Part shown: positions 1 through 33,132 of the stretch, in pieces
Position numbering within the stretch: position 1 is the first letter of the stretch
Layout: each line of letters starts with the position of its first letter
Virus record (IMG/VR): IMGVR_UViG_3300037088_000138
Span: 1 to 33,132 of that record
Origin: a virus
DNA: 33,132 nt
Strand: one strand, 5' to 3'
The notes under the pieces: generated by a model
Database searches by the model: none
The model's input: the letters and a program-made list of their open reading frames with translations, nothing else
Told to the model about the DNA's origin: nothing
Translations under genes and position numbers: made by a program

Positions 1-122
1 TTCGTATCTTTAATTTCCTTATCAATACGCCTAATATTCCAAGCGCGTTCTTCGGCAGGCATGTTAGCCTGCTCCAGTAAGTCATATCCCCCATGATACT
101 TCAGGAGGAATGACTGCTCCAT
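1..122 (-). CDS. Partial small tail-assembly/baseplate chaperone-like protein (C-terminus off the left edge)
   Basis: An open frame begins with ATG at 122 and runs off the left edge; about 40 residues are visible. They start MEQSFLLKYHGGYDLLEQ and continue with a NMPAEERAW segment. The pattern YHGGY-x-N-MP-x-x-x-R-x-W resembles the short proteins or C-terminal extensions encoded just after gp26-like baseplate proteins in T4-like phages; this is recalled family knowledge, not a search result. The frame stays open upstream of the ATG, in the +1 frame relative to the preceding gene, which ends 19 bases away. There is no good Shine-Dalgarno sequence, so translation may be coupled or reached by frameshift. 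Confidence 0.55.
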   Translation of the reverse strand, partial: MEQSFLLKYHGGYDLLEQANMPAEERAWNIRRIDKEIKDT

Positions 123-141
123 CAAGTGTTCCCACTCACTC

Positions 142-1125
142 TCACACTCTTGAATTGTTTTTTGGACGAAAAAAGGAGTCCGTAATCGGCAACTCCATCT
201 CAATATCCGTGCCACACTCAGGACAAGTCACATATATCTCAGTATCCAGCCCAGGTGCTTCATCTCTAATAACCCCGCGAATGGTAGCTGTATCGCGACC
301 ATGCATCCCTGTTACTAATTGTGCGATAGCATGTCTATCAGTCACACCATTCGCGTTAATAATAAGCAGATTCAGGTTCTCCTCAAGCGTCTGATCAATA
401 ATCGTCTGACGAGTCGGCCTCGGCGAATCATCCTGCTGCTGACTCTTGGGCCTGGCAGTCTGACCAACAGCTTTCTCGACAAATTTCCTCTTCTGACTCA
501 TGATCTGGGTATCGCGCCCACGCATAAACCGAACATCAACATAAAAATCACGCTTGGTAAACTCAGAGAGATACGGGAGTACTACCCTAACAGGCTCAGA
601 CATATGCTTCGGAGGCTTGACAGTCAATGCCGTCGCGTTCAGGTCATATGTGTGCGAACTATTCGCACCGCACGCCTCATTGGGACACTTCAACATAAAC
701 TCATAAAGATTGCCATGCGTGATACCACGCAGGACAAACAGAATGAACACTCTATCACCGACCAACAGATCCAGCGGATCGAAATTGCTCATATCAACGC
801 ACCGCTTGTATACCTCATCCAGCGCCTGACCACTTTGCGCTAATCGCGGTGTAGCCAGAATCTTATCTGTCATCAACCCCATTGGCCTTACTCTGACCTT
901 ACCACCGGGGATCTGATTGCCATAATATAACCCCTGGCTAGGGAGTACTATATCTTCCCAAGGAAGCAGCTCTTCCTGACTCTTACTCAACACAAAGCTT
1001 ACGACTTCAGCCGCCGACGCACCAGCTGGTAGTTCACTTTGAGGTTTCAGAGATTGTACCTCATCTGGCTTCGAGGTTTTGGGCGGTACGTTCTGACCTG
1101 GTAACGGAACTTCTTTCTCAGACAT
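142..1125 (-). CDS. Baseplate hub assembly protein, T4 gp26-like
   Basis: A protein of about 327 residues. I chose the ATG at 1125 (MSEKEVPLPGQ) because a strong GAGGAGGAG ribosome site lies just upstream; an earlier GTG is less likely. The proline-rich, low-complexity N-terminus is followed by a LPSQGLYYG motif of the kind seen in T4 gp26-type baseplate proteins. Two CxxC-like pairs (CPNEAC in the middle, CPECG near the C-terminus) could bind zinc. It follows the two tube genes in the late operon, where assembly factors for the baseplate or tail are often encoded. The C-terminus contains homopolymer runs (T6 and A6 on the coding strand) relevant to possible frameshifting into the next gene. 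The family assignment is inferred from motif and context. Confidence 0.5.
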   Translation of the reverse strand: MSEKEVPLPGQNVPPKTSKPDEVQSLKPQSELPAGASAAEVVSFVLSKSQEELLPWEDIVLPSQGLYYGNQIPGGKVRVRPMGLMTDKILATPRLAQSGQALDEVYKRCVDMSNFDPLDLLVGDRVFILFVLRGITHGNLYEFMLKCPNEACGANSSHTYDLNATALTVKPPKHMSEPVRVVLPYLSEFTKRDFYVDVRFMRGRDTQIMSQKRKFVEKAVGQTARPKSQQQDDSPRPTRQTIIDQTLEENLNLLIINANGVTDRHAIAQLVTGMHGRDTATIRGVIRDEAPGLDTEIYVTCPECGTDIEMELPITDSFFRPKNNSRV

Positions 1126-10045: not shown

Positions 10046-10660
10046 TTAGAACAATAAGACAGGAAGCGGCTCACCAAGAAGTATAGCATCCTGAACCACT
10101 TGAGCCTTTTCAGCTTGCCCTTCTACTCGCAATGTATCCCCATTGAGAGTAATTGACCCACCATCTGGAGACGGCAAAGAGCCAAATTTACTCCGAATAT
10201 TACCCAATATAATCTTGGCCTCAGCAACCATAGCCCGCTTGATTAACTCCCTAGCGGTAGGAGTCCTGATATTACTTATGACCGGGGTGTATTCGACCAT
10301 CACAGGAAAAGATCCACGTGGTGTAGGGAATAACCTGATCGTATTGTCACCCTTGACTTCCCAATGCCCATCAGTAGCCAAGACTTTCTTACTGAACTTG
10401 CGATAGGCTTGGAGTAGATGATAATCAAGTAATATATTTTGAATTCCAGTAACGTTGCCAACGTTCGCTGATAACCTAGCCTTAAACAGGAATCTATCCA
10501 AAACATGGTCAAAAATTTGCTTCTTTCCTCCTAATTCATGGCATATATCAAAAAATTCATTATTATGTGCTGGCCCACAAATAATATGAGAAATCTCATG
10601 GATCAAGTCATCCATAGAATGTGCAATTAATATATTATTCTTGAAATCAATTAGGCCCAT
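10046..10660 (-). CDS. C-terminal half of a neck/connector protein with an N-terminal HEISH extension
   Basis: A 204-residue protein from ATG 10660 with a strong AAGGAG site, so it is translated independently. From about residue 58 on (RFLFKARLSANVGNVTGIQ, then LQAYRKF, RLFPTPRG, AKIILGNIRSKFG and LNGDTLRVEGQAEK) it looks like the second half of a T4-like neck/connector protein. The missing first half is encoded at 12215-12925. The first 55 residues do not belong to that fold. They contain H21-E-I-S-H25 followed by CGPAHNNEFFDICHELGG, resembling the zinc-binding HExxH...H core of small metallopeptidases (YgjP/SprT-like), but too short to be a complete enzyme. It may be a leftover of the insertion. 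Confidence 0.65.
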   Translation of the reverse strand: MGLIDFKNNILIAHSMDDLIHEISHIICGPAHNNEFFDICHELGGKKQIFDHVLDRFLFKARLSANVGNVTGIQNILLDYHLLQAYRKFSKKVLATDGHWEVKGDNTIRLFPTPRGSFPVMVEYTPVISNIRTPTARELIKRAMVAEAKIILGNIRSKFGSLPSPDGGSITLNGDTLRVEGQAEKAQVVQDAILLGEPLPVLLF

Positions 10661-10678
10661 TATTCAGGCTCCTTATCT

Positions 10679-12193
10679 CTATCTTATATTTCTCAACTTC
10701 TTCAAAACAAGTCTACCAGATTTACCAACTATCTTACCAATTACCCTAGTTGACAATCTCTTATTAATATATTTATCATATAACCAACTATAATTATCCC
10801 ACTTATAGTTGGTACGATTTCTAATTGTTTCCCTTGGTGGTAACTCTTCTAAAGGCCAAATTAACTTAGTAGCATATCTAATTTCATTGTGCTTTGAACT
10901 TGATCCTCCCCATCTAACAACATAAGAACGATCTTCGAGAAATTTAGAAATAGTCCGATAATTTACCTTAAACTTTGCTGCTATTCCAAATTGCGTCATA
11001 TCTTGTTTGATTAAATCTAATATTTTATCCAAATTAAGAATAATTATCTTACCAAGCTTATCTTGCATATTCTGAGGACGATCATAATGAACGATCTTCG
11101 GTCTATTGATTATGAGATTATCATTAATTATCCTATATTGATAAATATGATTATATTTCTTCAATTTAGATATTACTCTATAACCTTTGGGGATCTCAAA
11201 ATCTTCCTTCGACCAAATAATAAATTTCTTCTTATGTTCTGAAAATTTCACAGGAAATATGACTCTATCATTAGGGATAGAGAATAATTTTATAGATCTG
11301 TTTAATTCATCTTCTGTAATCCATCTCCATCCTTGTAACTGTCTCTGAGCATATAAATATTTATCTGCAAGAGTTTGTAAATCTATAGGTTTAACCTCAA
11401 CATGTTCGATCCTACTTACATAAACAACTTTAAAATCACAAATATATTTCTTTTCCTTACCAGAAAAACTATCTAAATACCAAATCCAAGAAGTCTCATA
11501 ATCCCAAGATACCACCTCCCCTAGAGAATCTAAATAAACAGCATAAGCACATTCTAACATAGACCTAAACATAACTTCTTTAGAACATTTCATAGGTTTA
11601 TAAATTACGTTAATACCATGAGATTTCTTATTTGGCTCCTTTTCTCGGCCAAATTTTTTCTGTGGTCGAATTGGAATATCAAATCTTTTTAATCTATTCC
11701 TGACAGCAGTAATCGAACATCCTAACTCAGAAGCAATATCATCAATACCCCTCTGATTATCAATATATTCCACTCGCATCCAATTAGGATCTATAATTCT
11801 TTGATCTAATTTAGACTCACGAATTTGAGATTGAATTTTATGTATCTTCTCTCCCCAACGCTTAATTGGAACTCCAAACCTTCTACAGGCTTTGACTAAT
11901 CTCTTACGTTCAGCATTGTATTTAACGGCTATTTCAGTTAGAGATTGAGTCTCATATTCTTTTATAAATGATTCCTTATCTTCTAACAAATCATCTATTG
12001 GTTTCCTCCTATAAATTTTACCAGCTTCTTTGGCTAACCTTAATCCCTCTTTTTTAGTTCGAAGAACATTATGTTTCTTAAGTATAACATAAATAGAATT
12101 AGGTGCTCTATCAAATACCCCACATAAATCATTAATACTTTTACCTGATTTATATAATTCCACTACTTTATTTTGATCACATGGAGTCTTCAT
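10679..12193 (-). CDS. PD-(D/E)XK homing-endonuclease-like protein with helix-turn-helix repeats
   Basis: A 504-residue basic protein located exactly between the two halves of the neck gene. The N-terminal part (about 1-180) has several helix-turn-helix-like repeats, for example VVELYKSGKSINDLCGVFD and IDDIASELGCSITAVRNRL. A nuclease core follows: FRSMLE (209-214, RSxxE motif), YICDF (D253) and HVEVKP (E266, K268), matching the RSxxE...D...ExK signature of TnsA-like PD-(D/E)XK nucleases. The C-terminal half has further DNA-binding-like segments. The gene is very AT-rich compared with flanking structural genes, a sign of transfer, and its ribosome site is weak. It most likely cuts an uninterrupted allele of the neck gene and promotes spread of the insertion. 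Confidence 0.75.
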   Translation of the reverse strand: MKTPCDQNKVVELYKSGKSINDLCGVFDRAPNSIYVILKKHNVLRTKKEGLRLAKEAGKIYRRKPIDDLLEDKESFIKEYETQSLTEIAVKYNAERKRLVKACRRFGVPIKRWGEKIHKIQSQIRESKLDQRIIDPNWMRVEYIDNQRGIDDIASELGCSITAVRNRLKRFDIPIRPQKKFGREKEPNKKSHGINVIYKPMKCSKEVMFRSMLECAYAVYLDSLGEVVSWDYETSWIWYLDSFSGKEKKYICDFKVVYVSRIEHVEVKPIDLQTLADKYLYAQRQLQGWRWITEDELNRSIKLFSIPNDRVIFPVKFSEHKKKFIIWSKEDFEIPKGYRVISKLKKYNHIYQYRIINDNLIINRPKIVHYDRPQNMQDKLGKIIILNLDKILDLIKQDMTQFGIAAKFKVNYRTISKFLEDRSYVVRWGGSSSKHNEIRYATKLIWPLEELPPRETIRNRTNYKWDNYSWLYDKYINKRLSTRVIGKIVGKSGRLVLKKLRNIR

Positions 12194-12214
12194 ATTCTTA
12201 TTTACGTTCGGAGA

Positions 12215-12925
12215 TCATTTTGTTAGATAAAAAGACCTTCCTATAGCACTAATATAAATTCCACCACCGTTTACCTTTACACTCCATGTACCTTTAGTTT
12301 CAGATTTAGATATATCAATAATCTTCTCTTGTTTATCATTAGAATTAATTAATTTCTCACCAATTTTACATTCACACGCCATCTTCATCTTACCATCACA
12401 ACTAATTGGGTGATTTGAGGTACAAATTAAAAAATCTTTTTCTGTTTTCAATATAAGCATTGGTTGTTTTCTATCATTCCAACGCATTAATGGCCGTCGT
12501 AGACCAAATGGTGTAATCAATTTAATTTTATTTCTCTTCTCATAACATTCTTCACAGGTCATTTTACCTTCACTCGTCAATAGAATAGAACCACCTCCGA
12601 ACGAAAAGAGGAATGATTCAGCTCCAAATATATCTCCTATCCTCGTAACAGCAGGGTCCCATTTGATATCCTTCACCCAATATGCGTCTGCCGGTAGCGG
12701 ATATTCTGAGACCAATGGCTGAGTGTTGAAGTATGCGTATTTCTCTTCAAATGGGAAATAAGTAGCAATGAAGTCTCCAGTGACTCTGATTGCTTGTTCA
12801 AGTTGCTCCTCAGTCAGCTCAACCATAACAACTGGGTGGCCAAATGTGCATAATATCTCGAATTTTAGTGGATCTGAGGGTATTTTCAGGACAACAGGTA
12901 GATCAGGTGGGCCTAGAATACTCAT
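12215..12925 (-). CDS. N-terminal half of a neck/connector protein fused to an intein-like Hint domain
   Basis: 236 residues from ATG 12925 (MSILGPPDLP), overlapping the HNH stop codon as ATGA. Residues 1-107 look like the start of a T4-like neck/connector protein (VELTEEQLEQAIRVTGDFIA, PLPADAYWVKDI). At residue 108 the sequence changes to a Hint fold. Block A-like SFGGGSILLTSEG (108-120) aligns with the intein start [C/S]xxG-T-x-L-T-x-x-G. Block B-like CTSNHPIS (168-175) has the conserved T-x-x-H and is followed by the CKIGEKL stretch. Block F-like KGTWSVKVNGGGIYIS lies at 211-226. The frame ends at SFYLTK without the His-Asn and C/S/T junction needed for normal splicing. It may be a split or degenerate intein. 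Confidence 0.7.
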   Translation of the reverse strand: MSILGPPDLPVVLKIPSDPLKFEILCTFGHPVVMVELTEEQLEQAIRVTGDFIATYFPFEEKYAYFNTQPLVSEYPLPADAYWVKDIKWDPAVTRIGDIFGAESFLFSFGGGSILLTSEGKMTCEECYEKRNKIKLITPFGLRRPLMRWNDRKQPMLILKTEKDFLICTSNHPISCDGKMKMACECKIGEKLINSNDKQEKIIDISKSETKGTWSVKVNGGGIYISAIGRSFYLTK

Positions 12926-13440
12926 AGTTGTATCATCCCTTCCTCTAATTCCGCGTGACATCTGTTGCAGAGTAAAACACATTTATTAACTTCTATACGT
13001 AATTTTTCTAAAGAGAATCGTCTAAGCCCCCAAGCAATCTCATAATTTTTGGTGGATGGATCTTTATGATGAAAATGCATCGCATTTAAACATCTATTAT
13101 AACCACAAACTTTACAACTTCCCCCAGCATATTCTATTAATTTTCTCTTCTTTTCCTTACTAGCATCTCCAATATTTCGCCTTCGATTAGCTGTTTTCTT
13201 TTCCTTCCAACATAAACTACATCTCCATGTTACGCCTGGTTTCGAAAGTCCACCACGATATGTTCCATCACTATTCTTCCTATAATCTTTGTACGTTCTA
13301 AATTCAGATATGCCGTGCCGCTCACAAATATCATTCTTAGATTCATATTTTCTAGGAGATATAACCTTTATATAATTATCTAAATATGGTTTAGTGCTAG
13401 TCCGCACACCCCTACTTGGTTGTAATATTCCAGAACCCAT
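12922..13440 (-). CDS. HNH endonuclease, homing type
   Basis: A 172-residue protein with zinc-knuckle pairs CSLC (74-77) and CKVC (109-112). The HNH core is AMHFHHKDP (120-128), then CVLLCNRCHAEL (154-165), as in free-standing phage HNH homing endonucleases. The gene ends inside the start region of the fractured neck gene (ATGA overlap). It has no Shine-Dalgarno sequence; its start lies in GCAAAGATATTATATGGG, similar to the AT motif of other mobile genes here. It is AT-rich. The likely role is DNA cleavage promoting its own inheritance. It might also be a partner of the downstream insertion. Confidence 0.85.
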   Translation of the reverse strand: MGSGILQPSRGVRTSTKPYLDNYIKVISPRKYESKNDICERHGISEFRTYKDYRKNSDGTYRGGLSKPGVTWRCSLCWKEKKTANRRRNIGDASKEKKRKLIEYAGGSCKVCGYNRCLNAMHFHHKDPSTKNYEIAWGLRRFSLEKLRIEVNKCVLLCNRCHAELEEGMIQL

Positions 13441-16025: not shown

Positions 16026-17183
16026 ATGAAGATCCACAAGGCTTATAAATATCGGATCTACCCCACTTATAAACAACAAGAACAATTTAAGCATCACTTT
16101 GGTTGTGCCCGCTGGATTTATAATTATTTCTTGGAGAGAAAGATCAAACAATATCGAGAAACAAAGAAATCAGATTCATTCCTCCAAATGAATAAACACT
16201 TGACAGAATTAAAGAAACAAGAGAAATATTCATGGCTGAGTAATGTGAGTAGACAATGTTTGGCTAATTCATTAGATAATTTAGATCAAGCTTATAATAA
16301 CTTCTTTAGGAAAAGAACCGATTACCCCAAATTCAAGAATAAATACTCAAAACAAGCATTTAAGATAAGGGTCCCATTTTGTTCAATTAGAGGTGAATTT
16401 ATTCATTTACCACAAATAGGAAATATTAGATGCAATCTTTATAATTTACCCAAAGAATATAAGTTATTCTCAATAATAATCATCAAGACTCCTACAGATA
16501 AGTATTTTGCTTCAATAAATATAGAACAAGAAATATCAGATCCACAGATTGATATAACTAAACCAGAAATAGGAATAGATTTCGGACTAAAAACATTCAT
16601 AACTTGTTCAAATGGAGTAAAGATAGAACACCCACTGCCACTTAGAAAGCTGTTAAGGAAGTTAAAGAGGTTCGCTAAGAGAGTGAGTAGAAGAGAAGTT
16701 GGGTCTAAGAGGAGGGAGGTAGCAAGGAGAAAATTAGCACTTCTCTATGAGAAAATTAGTAATCAGCGTTTAGATTTCCTTCATAAGTTAAGTCACAAGA
16801 TGGTGAGCGAGAACCAAGCCATCTATCTTGAGGACCTAAACTTGAAGGGAATGATGAGTAGATGGGGGCAGAAAATATCAGATTCTGGATGGTGTGAATA
16901 TTCTAGACAATTGAGTTATAAAGGTCAATGGTGTGGTTGTTATGTTGGTAAGATAGATAGATTCTTTGCTAGTAGTAAATTATGTAATAAATGTAAGTGT
17001 ATTAATCAGGCTCTAACATTGTCTGATAGGGAGTGGGATTGTTCTTGTGGTGCTCATCATGATAGGGATGTAAACGCTGGTCTGAATATTCTTGAATACG
17101 GTCGGGCTGACCGTAATTTACGGACAGGGAGAGTAGAGGTTCCTAACTCACTCATTGAACTGTCTAAGCAAGGAGTAAGTTGA
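16026..17183 (+). mobile_element. tnpB: TnpB, RNA-guided nuclease of IS200/IS605-type elements (intact, no TnpA seen)
   Basis: A 385-residue protein with the full TnpB layout. The N-terminus is KAYKYRIYPTYKQQEQF and the RuvC-like catalytic residues are D185 in GIDFGLKTF, E269 in YLEDLNLKG and D348 in HHDRDVNAGLN. A zinc ribbon uses C320, C323, C339 and C341. TnpB binds an RNA from its element's 3' end and cuts matching DNA next to a short motif. It is on the plus strand, against the late operon, and its stop codon lies 4 bases from the stop of the J-like gene, so little room is left for the usual right end. No tnpA or clear element ends are visible. The start lacks a good ribosome site and overlaps TCAAATATAAAATATGAAG. 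Confidence 0.9.
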
Positions 17184-30024: not shown

Positions 30025-31572
30025 CTAGAATTCATAGACAAATCTTATTTTCTCCTTCTCAGGCACACGCTTTAAATCTGCTGCTAAAGCATATTCTTCT
30101 TCTGTCATTTTCATCCTTGAAGCATGGTAATATATTGTCTTTTTATGATATCGACCACCAAGTTCGTCAACATAAAAATAACTTGGTGACACAATACCAT
30201 CTTCCTTAAAATTAGCAGCTCGATAAATTGTCCCATCATGACCCTGTGTGGTATCAGCAAAGGTTATAATCTTCGAAGCATTAGGGACCATCTTCAGAAA
30301 ACGTGAAAGCATATAACTAGCAGCATTTTTAATTTGATATTTTGGATGAATACAAAATCTAGATAATTCAAGATACCCCAAATTATTGTTATAAGTCGGA
30401 TATTTAAATACACATAGTCCTACTAATATATCTTTGTGAAATGCTCCAGCAGCTAGAACAAATGGGCCTACTTTACCAGCATAATGAAAATTTAATATAA
30501 AATCTGCCGCTATTTCTGGTTCGACAATTCTAAAAATCAAATCAGAGAATTGATATTCAATTGGACTAATTCTCTTACCTAATATATCACCGATAATAAT
30601 ACAAAGCGCTTGACGACTCAGTGTATATTGCTCCCAAATACGAAAGTAACGCTCCGATCTATTAGCCTTAATGAAATCATTCTTGCGCTTATCTTTTTCA
30701 ATTGCATAAATAATTTGTTTATGGTCTTGTTTAAATCTACCGTGCCAATATTCACCATCAACATCAATAAGATAATTCAAATTAGGTAATAAAAAATCAA
30801 CATTAAATCCTCCACCAACGAAAATATTGCGCTTATATGTTTCATTATATAAATCTAAAATAAAAGCAACTGCTTTCTCTGGTTTTGTATCAGTAAATTT
30901 TGCTAACTTCTCCCACAATCTCAATGAATACCATCTCTTACGAGATATCTCAACTAACTTTTTTCTGGTTTCTGGATCACGCCAAATAGCCCTACCAACT
31001 TCAGCTGATCTAAGTCTACCCTCAACAGATCTAGATGACTCAGCTGCTTTTCTCATCATCTCAGATCTATAATTATCATCATTCCATTTCTTCTTTAATA
31101 TTTGGGAACGTTTCTCTCTTATATCCGGTCGCTTGTTGAAATTATAAAGTCGCCCTTTGATGTCCAAACTCCTACGCCTAAAGAAACGACACAGATTAAC
31201 ATAATTGATAGATAATAATCTCGAAATTTGTACTGCTGTCTCGCCTGATTCATATAATTTCAATATTTCATCAGTTTTATTTATAATTTCTTCGTTGGCT
31301 TTCTCTTGTTGATTTTTTCCTCTATCCCAACCGCGTCGTTTAGATAAGCGCCATATTGTCACAGTACAACAATTTAACCCCAATTGTTTAATTATTTCCG
31401 CTGGCATCGCCCCATCTCTTATCAGTTCTTTAATTTTCTGTTCTGGTAACTCACATTCCTTACAACATCTAGAACATAAATATACACCATTATTCTTAAT
31501 ATTTAATCTAAATGCCTTCTTAGATACTTCTTTTGGCGTACTACATTTAGCGCACTTGACTCTAATTCTCAT
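30025..31572 (-). CDS. Vsr-like endonuclease fused to a Mom-like GNAT domain
   Basis: A 515-residue protein. Order seen: an N-terminal zinc ribbon (C7, C10, C33, C36), two helix-turn-helix-like segments (about 45-140), a basic NUMOD-like linker and a Vsr/EDxHD-type nuclease core. Candidate catalytic residues are E232, D259 in FNVDFLLP, H277 in DVDGEYWHG and D294 in KDKRKNDFI. From about 350 a second domain resembles the Mu Mom GNAT fold: NFHYAG, ELSRFCIHP and FADTTQGHDGTIYRAANF (438-455). The first half fits homing endonucleases; the second suggests DNA-base or acyl transfer chemistry. The gene is AT-rich, lacks a Shine-Dalgarno sequence and sits alone between RNR and primase. The activity of the second domain is inferred. 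Confidence 0.75.
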   Translation of the reverse strand: MRIRVKCAKCSTPKEVSKKAFRLNIKNNGVYLCSRCCKECELPEQKIKELIRDGAMPAEIIKQLGLNCCTVTIWRLSKRRGWDRGKNQQEKANEEIINKTDEILKLYESGETAVQISRLLSINYVNLCRFFRRRSLDIKGRLYNFNKRPDIREKRSQILKKKWNDDNYRSEMMRKAAESSRSVEGRLRSAEVGRAIWRDPETRKKLVEISRKRWYSLRLWEKLAKFTDTKPEKAVAFILDLYNETYKRNIFVGGGFNVDFLLPNLNYLIDVDGEYWHGRFKQDHKQIIYAIEKDKRKNDFIKANRSERYFRIWEQYTLSRQALCIIIGDILGKRISPIEYQFSDLIFRIVEPEIAADFILNFHYAGKVGPFVLAAGAFHKDILVGLCVFKYPTYNNNLGYLELSRFCIHPKYQIKNAASYMLSRFLKMVPNASKIITFADTTQGHDGTIYRAANFKEDGIVSPSYFYVDELGGRYHKKTIYYHASRMKMTEEEYALAADLKRVPEKEKIRFVYEF

Positions 31573-31617: not shown

Positions 31618-33132
31618 CTAACCGCATAAACTCTCGCCACAATTCCGACAAGTCTTGCACGTAGCCCCCATCTGAATGTCATCACTCCCACACTTCTTAC
31701 ATCTAAACTTGCCTCTCAGTTCTTCTTGTTTTATGTAAATTGCTAGAGTCTTAGCAATAGCCTTCGGAAAGCTCGTAATCAAGGCCCTTGACTTTGAAAT
31801 CTGATCAACAATGAACTCAAGAGGAACACCATGCCGCAACGACGTAGAGACCAACCGCGTAAAGAGTGACGCCTCGTTATCCTCATAAGAATTCAGCTTC
31901 TGAATCCGCATAGCTCCCGACTCGAAATGATAGAAATTGAGATCATTCTCACCCTTTTCCTTCACAATCTGACCAGTCTGACCATCAGCAACACCGGCCA
32001 GCTTATGATCGAGTGCGAATACCTCATAGATCCGGCCATCCATGAAACCCACAAAGACAGTAAATGTCTTACCATTGGGTTTGATAATGTGAACCTTAGC
32101 ATCTAACACTTTTGGTCGAGAGGGGGCTGAATGCACGACAATGTGCTGCTTCTCTTCCTTAACAGAGGGAATATCCACCAACACGCCTTCACGGCTACCA
32201 TCACGATAAACTGTAATACCCTTGAGACCCAGACGCCAGGCACTGATATATAGCTTACCAATTTGTTCGGGAGTGGCATCGTGTGGGAGGTTGAAGGTAT
32301 TCGAAATAGATTGATCAACATACTTCTGAATCATCGCCTGCAATCTCAGACGGCGATCATTATCAACTTGATGGGCACCCACAAAGAAATCAGGTAGTTT
32401 GTCTGACGGGCAATTGAACTTCTCCGAATATTCCTTGGCAGTAGCGTGCCAAACTTCATGTTCCTTTACTTCCTTGGCAGTCCCAAGATTTGTCTTGCGG
32501 ATATAATGGATCTTAAACGCAGGCTCAATTCCAGATGATGCCTGCGCTACAACCGCGATTGAGCCAGTGGGTGCGATAGATAATACAGCAATATTGCGGA
32601 TTCCCTTCTTTTTGATCCGTTCCTTCAGATAATCAGGTAATCTCTGAATAAACGGCGACTTCATGTGCTTTTCAACATCAAAAGCCGGGAACGGTCCTTT
32701 CTCTTCAGCTAAGTTACATGACTCATCATAGGCAGTATCACGCATCACTTTGAAGATGTTCTCAGCCAGCTCTAAAGCAGCATCAGAGTCATACCGCATT
32801 GACATTCTCATGAAGACATCAGCCAATCCCATAACTCCAAGACCGACGCGTCTCCCCTCGTCATTGATCTTCTGCTGGAACAGCAATGGCGTCTTCTCAA
32901 GAGTATTGATATTATCTAGGAATCTAATTGCTGTACGAACATCACTTTTGAAAGCTTCATAGTCGAAATAAGGGTTGAACCATGAATTACGGACATACTT
33001 ACCAAGATTGATTGATCCAAGATCACAACTATCACCATGCCCCGCAGCAACCTCACCACATGGGTTAGTAGCAACTGGTTTAAATTGATCATACATACCC
33101 GAAGGACAACCACGAATCATAGAATCAATGAA
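31618..33132 (-). CDS. nrdJ: Ribonucleotide reductase, adenosylcobalamin-dependent (class II) - C-terminal part
   Basis: The frame runs off the right edge; about 504 C-terminal residues are visible. Motifs of the RNR catalytic barrel are NPCGE with SCDLGSINLGKYV, then GLGVMGLADVF and APTGSIAVVAQASSGIEP. The C-terminus ends in a zinc-ribbon-like CKKCGSDDIQ then CKTCRNCGESLCG, typical of the B12-dependent class II enzymes, where the terminal cysteines recycle the active site. It converts ribonucleotides to deoxyribonucleotides for phage DNA synthesis. The C-terminus is complete, so the following endonuclease gene did not interrupt it. Class II rather than class I is inferred from the C-terminal zinc ribbon and the layout. 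Confidence 0.88.
   Translation of the reverse strand, partial: FIDSMIRGCPSGMYDQFKPVATNPCGEVAAGHGDSCDLGSINLGKYVRNSWFNPYFDYEAFKSDVRTAIRFLDNINTLEKTPLLFQQKINDEGRRVGLGVMGLADVFMRMSMRYDSDAALELAENIFKVMRDTAYDESCNLAEEKGPFPAFDVEKHMKSPFIQRLPDYLKERIKKKGIRNIAVLSIAPTGSIAVVAQASSGIEPAFKIHYIRKTNLGTAKEVKEHEVWHATAKEYSEKFNCPSDKLPDFFVGAHQVDNDRRLRLQAMIQKYVDQSISNTFNLPHDATPEQIGKLYISAWRLGLKGITVYRDGSREGVLVDIPSVKEEKQHIVVHSAPSRPKVLDAKVHIIKPNGKTFTVFVGFMDGRIYEVFALDHKLAGVADGQTGQIVKEKGENDLNFYHFESGAMRIQKLNSYEDNEASLFTRLVSTSLRHGVPLEFIVDQISKSRALITSFPKAIAKTLAIYIKQEELRGKFRCKKCGSDDIQMGATCKTCRNCGESLCG

Follow-up and report, generated by a model that had tools for sequence, protein, structure and literature searches.

In an IMG/VR viral contig (IMGVR_UViG_3300037088_000138; "the window" below is this whole stretch of DNA, 33,132 bases), a gene for a neck (head-to-tail connector) protein is broken into two halves, and a homing-endonuclease-like gene lies between them. 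The first half carries an intein-like Hint domain that lacks the terminal Asn of inteins, and the second half starts with a zincin-like domain. All 11 of the distinct interrupted alleles that we found share this plan. We propose that a mobile element with two protein-processing parts is inserted between neck codons 107 and 108 and that the halves are rejoined by trans-splicing, in which the Hint domain and the protease cooperate; we lean towards this explanation, if only slightly. We are evenly divided as to whether the element represents a class of protein splicing in which two unrelated enzymes act on two chains: an Asn-less Hint domain to activate the N-extein, and, as a fusion with the C-extein, a zinc protease to free the attacking amine.

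The split neck gene

Most of the myovirus structural genes in the window are encoded by the minus strand. Three minus-strand open reading frames (ORFs) make up the element and its host gene: the N-half with its Hint domain (12215-12925), the endonuclease (10679-12193), and the C-half (10046-10660). Their features, in the order of transcription, are:

12605..12925, minus strand: N-extein, neck residues 1-107, ending in ...GAESFLF (71-79% identity to the closest other alleles)
12218..12604, minus strand: predicted complete Hint (intein-like) domain of 129 amino acids, residues 108-236 (AlphaFold model; Foldseek and VIA matches to complete inteins)
12602-12604, minus strand: Ser1, position 1 of the Hint domain
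12410-12421, minus strand: block B of the Hint domain, TSNH
12215..12217, minus strand: stop codon TGA at the position of the intein terminal Asn (same column in 11/11 alleles)
10679..12193, minus strand: homing-endonuclease-like gene with helix-turn-helix (HTH) modules and a PD-(D/E)XK nuclease-like core (Pfam, PHROG)
10526..10660, minus strand: zincin-like (minigluzincin/SprT/WLM-type) metallopeptidase domain (weak family matches, profile search)
10586-10600, minus strand: HEISH motif of the zincin-like domain
10565-10567, minus strand: third His of the zincin-like domain, C-half residue 32
10466..10525, minus strand: linker ending in ...RLSA, with the predicted cleavage site right before Asn108 (ORF residue 66; from the residue pattern)
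10046..10465, minus strand: C-extein, neck residue 108 onward (NVGNVTGIQN...), and stop codon (phrog_211, 7e-5; Asn108 invariant)

A profile of the uninterrupted relatives matches T4 gp13 (E = 1e-4) and the PHROG family phrog_211, "head-tail adaptor Ad2", and the broken gene is an essential, T4 gp13-like neck gene. Searches of viral contigs with the N-half and the C-half gave 18 and 72 loci, respectively. In 53 distinct uninterrupted homologues, the counterpart of F107 is followed directly, without a gap, by the counterpart of C-half residue N66 (the junction reads ...GAESFLF and then N(V/I)GN...). Because these homologues run straight through F107-N108, the insertion point is exact, and residues 1-65 of the C-half do not belong to the neck protein. 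From the comparison of the 53 intact with the 11 interrupted alleles, the gene is split precisely between Phe107 and Asn108, with no extein residue lost or gained, and Asn108 is invariant in both sets (53/53 and 11/11). A first-pass annotation of this DNA had recognized one neck gene broken in two by an endonuclease gene, and the intact homologues bear this out: the halves did not turn out to be two complete, separate proteins. That annotation had the neck part of the C-half begin at about residue 58, which these relatives move to residue 66.

The interrupted alleles (the window, L003 (=L001, L002), L093/L100, L005, L006, L010, L016, L018, L123 (=L127), L125 (=L126), and L128) are all metagenomic sequences from uncultured phages. 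Three of them (L123, L125, and L128) were picked up when viral contigs were scanned for DNA encoding FGAESFLF-Cys, a scan whose reach was alleles with FGAESFLF and Cys1, and all three have the predicted Asn-less Hint domain and zincin C-half. (Matches to the junction pattern in bacterial genomes, L130-L132, were rejected as chance.) The pairing also holds across 49 contigs: matches to a profile of the Hint domain were confined to interrupted contigs, and a zincin profile matched interrupted contigs plus, marginally (E = 0.098), one intact contig. Neither profile matched a contig with a canonical intein in the neck gene (L009, discussed below). In L093, genes on the opposite strand lie between the neck halves, which are more than 5 kb apart, so any joining has to take place between the proteins.

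A Hint domain without a terminal asparagine

The AlphaFold (AF2) model of the N-half product has a Hint fold, with a predicted local distance difference test score (pLDDT) of about 90 for residues 110-236. Foldseek matches this model to bacterial intein-like (BIL), VidaL, and gp41-1 inteins (E = 3e-7), and the best structural neighbors by VIA are Hedgehog (1at0) and intein splicing domains (Z = 17.5, root-mean-square deviation 1.6-1.9 Å over 121-122 residues). A profile of the Hint domain also matches the PDB (E = 4.8e-5). Both modeling and profile searches of the 12215-12925 product thus agree with the first-pass annotation, which had placed a Hint domain after Ser108 with block B at TSNH and an F-like block.

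In structural comparison, the Hint domain aligns with residues 1..124 of the gp41-1 intein and 1..439 of the Mtu RecA intein, which we take to end at residues 125 and 440. Residues 108-236 would then correspond to residues 1..n-1 of complete inteins, with Lys236 at the penultimate position. On this model, the domain amounts to an entire mini-intein that lacks only the catalytic terminal Asn, with a stop codon in place of that residue, and not half of a split intein. Indeed, the terminal-Asn position is a stop in all 11 alleles (the codons that were read are TGA, TAA, or TAG), and the Hint domain varies little in size (127-133 amino acids). Position 1 is Cys in nine alleles and Ser in two (the window and L003), and block B is T/S-x-N-H in every one, which fits blocks A and B of the Hint fold (Cys/Ser1 and T/S-x-x-H). 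The penultimate position is His in 8/11 alleles, with no Asn after it: the domain ends in LVH (L005, L006, L010, L016, L128), LIH (L018), VGH (L123), or LSH (L093), and without His in LVS (L125), LTK (the window), or LVK (L003).

Canonical splicing depends on an Asn at the end of the intein and on a nucleophile at +1. To our knowledge, all known classes of intein finish with a cyclization on the Hint domain itself, either of its C-terminal Asn or of a substitute for it. The lack of a terminal HN/Ser junction had been noticed in the window at the outset, and it extends to all 11 alleles, in which the Asn is replaced by a stop and the +1 residue is Asn.

A zincin-like domain on the second half

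The C-half starts with a 65-residue extension, made up of a zincin-type domain and a linker. In all of the alleles, the C-half opens with a domain that carries (H/D)ExxH-x6/7-H. The Glu and the second and third ligand His of this motif never vary (11/11); the first residue is His in seven alleles and Asp in four. Searches with single sequences gave weak matches to WLM (1.2e-3, the window, Pfam), SprT-like (2.8e-4, L100), and Peptidase_M78 (3.6e-3, L018) families, and PHROG matches of up to 1.9e-6, including the "metallo-protease" family phrog_87. With a profile of 11 sequences, the best matches were to the minigluzincins proabylysin (1.6e-4), MJ1213 (1.8e-3), and projannalysin (5e-3), followed by WLM proteases. 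We read this domain as a minimal zincin and a putative peptidase. The extension had first been described as unrelated, and this no longer fits: the domain is conserved and is found together with the Asn-less Hint domain.

The linker is variable, except just before Asn108, where position -3 is hydrophobic and -2 is Ala/Gly/Ser in 11/11 alleles and -1 is Ala/Gly/Ser in 10/11 (it is Phe in L093). In L093/L100 (L093:5001-5705 and L100:1498-2163), the C-half reads VVHNISF before NVGN, oddly like the end of intein block G followed by an altered extein. The HN of "GPAHN/GPHHN" was considered as the end of block G and rejected: it coincides with the region of the third zincin ligand and is not kept in other alleles.

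Between the window and L003, the ratio of nonsynonymous to synonymous substitution rates (dN/dS) is 0.12 for the Hint domain, 0.15 for the endonuclease, and 0.16 for the extension. These values point to purifying selection on both the Hint domain and the extension.

The endonuclease gene

The endonuclease between the halves matches HTH_28 (3e-9) and, weakly, the TnsA-like N domain (0.12) in Pfam, and HNH endonuclease (1.8e-15) and Holliday junction resolvase (5e-5) families in PHROG. A homologue follows the Hint half in all 11 alleles, although in L093 it is shortened to 263 amino acids. Distances between alleles for the Hint domain are correlated with those for the endonuclease (r = 0.84), whereas both show little correlation with the exteins (r = 0.01-0.18); the extension is correlated with both sets. 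The Hint domain and the endonuclease thus appear to co-evolve, apart from the exteins, as expected of a mobile unit. Scans for the Hint subfamily and for GEPVL(V/I)H-stop, which looked for the element in other genes, found the known neck alleles only, and tblastn of phage records gave only partial matches (E = 0.2-0.7).

Relatives of the endonuclease also lie just downstream of uninterrupted neck genes (L035:5861-6715, L062:5879-6544, and L080:5888-6703), as if they targeted the neck gene from outside. In L003, an additional ORF of about 80 amino acids (MADEACQSIAETI...; L003:8271-8516) lies between the endonuclease and the C-half. This ORF is absent from the window, where only 18 bases separate the two genes.

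A proposed mechanism for rejoining the halves

We propose that the Hint Cys1 or Ser1 would attack by an N-S or N-O acyl shift, which would convert Phe107 to a (thio)ester. The zincin domain would release itself from the second chain by a cut immediately before Asn108, and this cut would replace the Asn cyclization of inteins. The freed alpha-amine of Asn108 would then attack the (thio)ester, which would yield a neck protein without a scar and set the Hint domain free. The expected product is the N-extein joined to the C-extein, with the junction peptide ...GAESFLFNVGNVTGIQ..., and the endonuclease gene between the halves would provide mobility. A precedent for the last step comes from type A BIL domains, for which the proposed mechanism is an N-terminal thioester, C-terminal cleavage, and attack by the free amine of the C-extein (PMC4031507). 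This route needs no +1 nucleophile, so putting a zincin in place of Asn cyclization gives a scheme that uses every conserved part.

The arrangement suggests that a protease took over half of the intein chemistry for rejoining broken proteins. Also, the consistent pairing of an Asn-less Hint domain with a zincin-like domain in 11 alleles implies that the Asn step can be handed to a protease. As no nucleophilic +1 residue would be needed, such elements could, if our proposal is correct, occupy sites that are closed to ordinary inteins. This would widen the scope of protein splicing, explain how a mobile element can survive at a site without a +1 nucleophile, and amount to traceless ligation with no Cys, Ser, or Thr at the junction.

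Several observations weigh against this proposal. The zincin assignment rests on weak matches, and AF2 models the C-half poorly (mean pLDDT of 54, and 67-77 for the zincin helices); fold searches with this low-confidence model matched T4 neck structures and no zincin. Four alleles (L016, L123, L125, and L128) form a subclade with DExxH, in which the Glu and both other His are kept; an Asp in place of the first His could still bind metal. The small residues before Asn108 would equally suit an uncleaved fusion. In the Hint domain, the fourth position of block F is never Asp or Cys (our alignments have Ser, Ala, or Thr there), and both alleles with Ser1 terminate in Lys instead of His. Finally, intermolecular aminolysis competes with hydrolysis.

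Alternative explanations

The most serious alternative, which we consider unlikely, is that the two chains are trimmed and then held together non-covalently in the neck ring: the Hint domain would hydrolyze itself off the first half, and the zincin would remove itself from the second. The anatomy would be identical, and type B BILs do cleave without splicing (PMC4031507). There is also a parallel in a gene-in-pieces ribonucleotide reductase, made by a homing endonuclease, which stays functional according to the title of Friedrich (2007), as cited in PMC3322345. However, no Hint domain is needed for a clean C-terminus, and Cys1/Ser1 and T/S-x-N-H are kept in 11/11 alleles. We rank trimming below ligation because a plain stop codon would yield the identical N-half product. 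Likewise, if the halves merely had to associate, then a stop codon and a start codon would be enough; the retention of the Hint domain is understandable if an activated C-terminus is put to use.

Another possibility is that the Hint and zincin domains are non-functional remnants of a former intein, which are tolerated as tails while the fused halves assemble. The DExxH motif of four alleles and the replacement of the penultimate His by Lys or Ser in three could be signs of such decay. This seems improbable given the low dN/dS (0.12-0.16) and given that 11 diverged alleles retain position 1, block B, and the zincin Glu/His/His. Also, the endonuclease of L093 is shortened, yet both processing domains remain.

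Third, the zincin-like domain could be a module for docking or metal binding, one that recruits the C-half to the Hint domain, with cleavage by another enzyme or none. Its small size (about 45-80 amino acids across the alleles, with a core of about 45 in the window), the DExxH subclade, and the variable linker would all be compatible with this. But the catalytic Glu and two metal ligands are invariant in 11/11 alleles, and the closest solved structures are minigluzincins, of about 100 amino acids. We view this idea as improbable too, marginally more so than decay.

Finally, it is very doubtful that this is a fractured gene with a split intein (Dassa, 2009) whose C-part, on the C-half, went unrecognized: the gene order (N-half, free-standing endonuclease, C-half) is identical and the Hint domain is real, but that domain already reaches the penultimate residue on the N-half, the extension matches zincins instead of intein blocks, +1 is Asn in 11/11 and 53/53 alleles, and no HN directly precedes the junction.

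Other candidates were set aside. The sequence rules out canonical or split-intein splicing (no terminal Asn, no C-intein, and Asn at +1). A class 3 intein would need the W-C-T motif, whose Cys is the fourth residue of block F, and we find Ser, Ala, or Thr there. Stop codon readthrough or a frameshift that regains the Asn does not fit either, as TGA, TAA, and TAG differ by allele, reading in another frame soon ends in most cases, and the endonuclease gene does not keep the same relative frame from allele to allele. An intron seems unlikely: no Rfam family reached its gathering score anywhere in the window, and the halves of L093 lie more than 5 kb from each other.

Comparison with known systems

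The locus resembles fractured genes (Dassa, 2009) in that a phage-type essential gene appears in two pieces, with a Hint domain on the first half, a free-standing endonuclease gene between them, and an extension on the second half. This part of the comparison made in the first-pass annotation stands; its split intein does not, as the Hint domain appears to be complete on one side, and a C-part for trans-splicing, which had also been suggested, has no counterpart in the 11 alleles (no intein C-part, no terminal Asn, and no Cys, Ser, or Thr at +1). Also unlike fractured genes, the second half has a zincin-like domain, and the endonuclease combines HTH modules with a PD-(D/E)XK-like core. The original family of free-standing endonucleases in fractured genes is said to be Vsr-like.

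Like type A BIL domains (Amitai, 2003; Dassa, 2004; Aranko, 2013), our Hint domain has no +1 nucleophile. BILs, however, end in His-Asn, and the amine is freed by Asn cyclization in cis; here, the Asn is absent in 11/11 alleles and the C-flank is on another chain, whose zincin-like domain is proposed to free the amine. The Hog domain of Hedgehog, which shares the fold (1at0, Z = 17.5), performs the initial acyl shift only and then accepts an outside nucleophile (PMC7664689). That nucleophile is cholesterol, whereas here it would be the alpha-amine of a protein.

In seven of the 11 alleles, the putative peptidase domain shares HExxH...H on a minimal scaffold with the minigluzincins and the WLM/SprT-like metallopeptidases (proabylysin, projannalysin, MJ1213, and Wss1). 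It differs from them in being fused to a fragment of a structural protein, in being even shorter in the window, and in having a DExxH subclade.

The canonical intein of L009 (L009:1849-2979) is a cis mini-intein of 131 amino acids, in the neck gene and similar in size to our Hint domain. It is inserted four residues upstream (GAE^SFLF) and runs in a single chain from Cys1 to VVHN, followed by Ser+1, in a contig without a zincin domain. In open-licence PMC papers, we found no intein paired with a metalloprotease, zincin, or SprT, and no neck-protein intein.

Neighboring genes

Directly upstream of the broken neck gene is an HNH-type endonuclease gene (12922-13440, minus strand; PHROG HNH endonuclease, 1e-24), whose stop codon and the start codon of the neck gene lie in a 4-base overlap. 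Among the structural genes, a TnpB/IS605-like ORF of 385 amino acids (16026-17183) lies on the opposite (plus) strand and is A+T rich. Near the end of the window, an endonuclease-like ORF of 515 amino acids (30025-31572, minus strand) adjoins a ribonucleotide-reductase-like gene (31618-33132), and its style resembles that of the ORFs near the neck halves of L093/L100.
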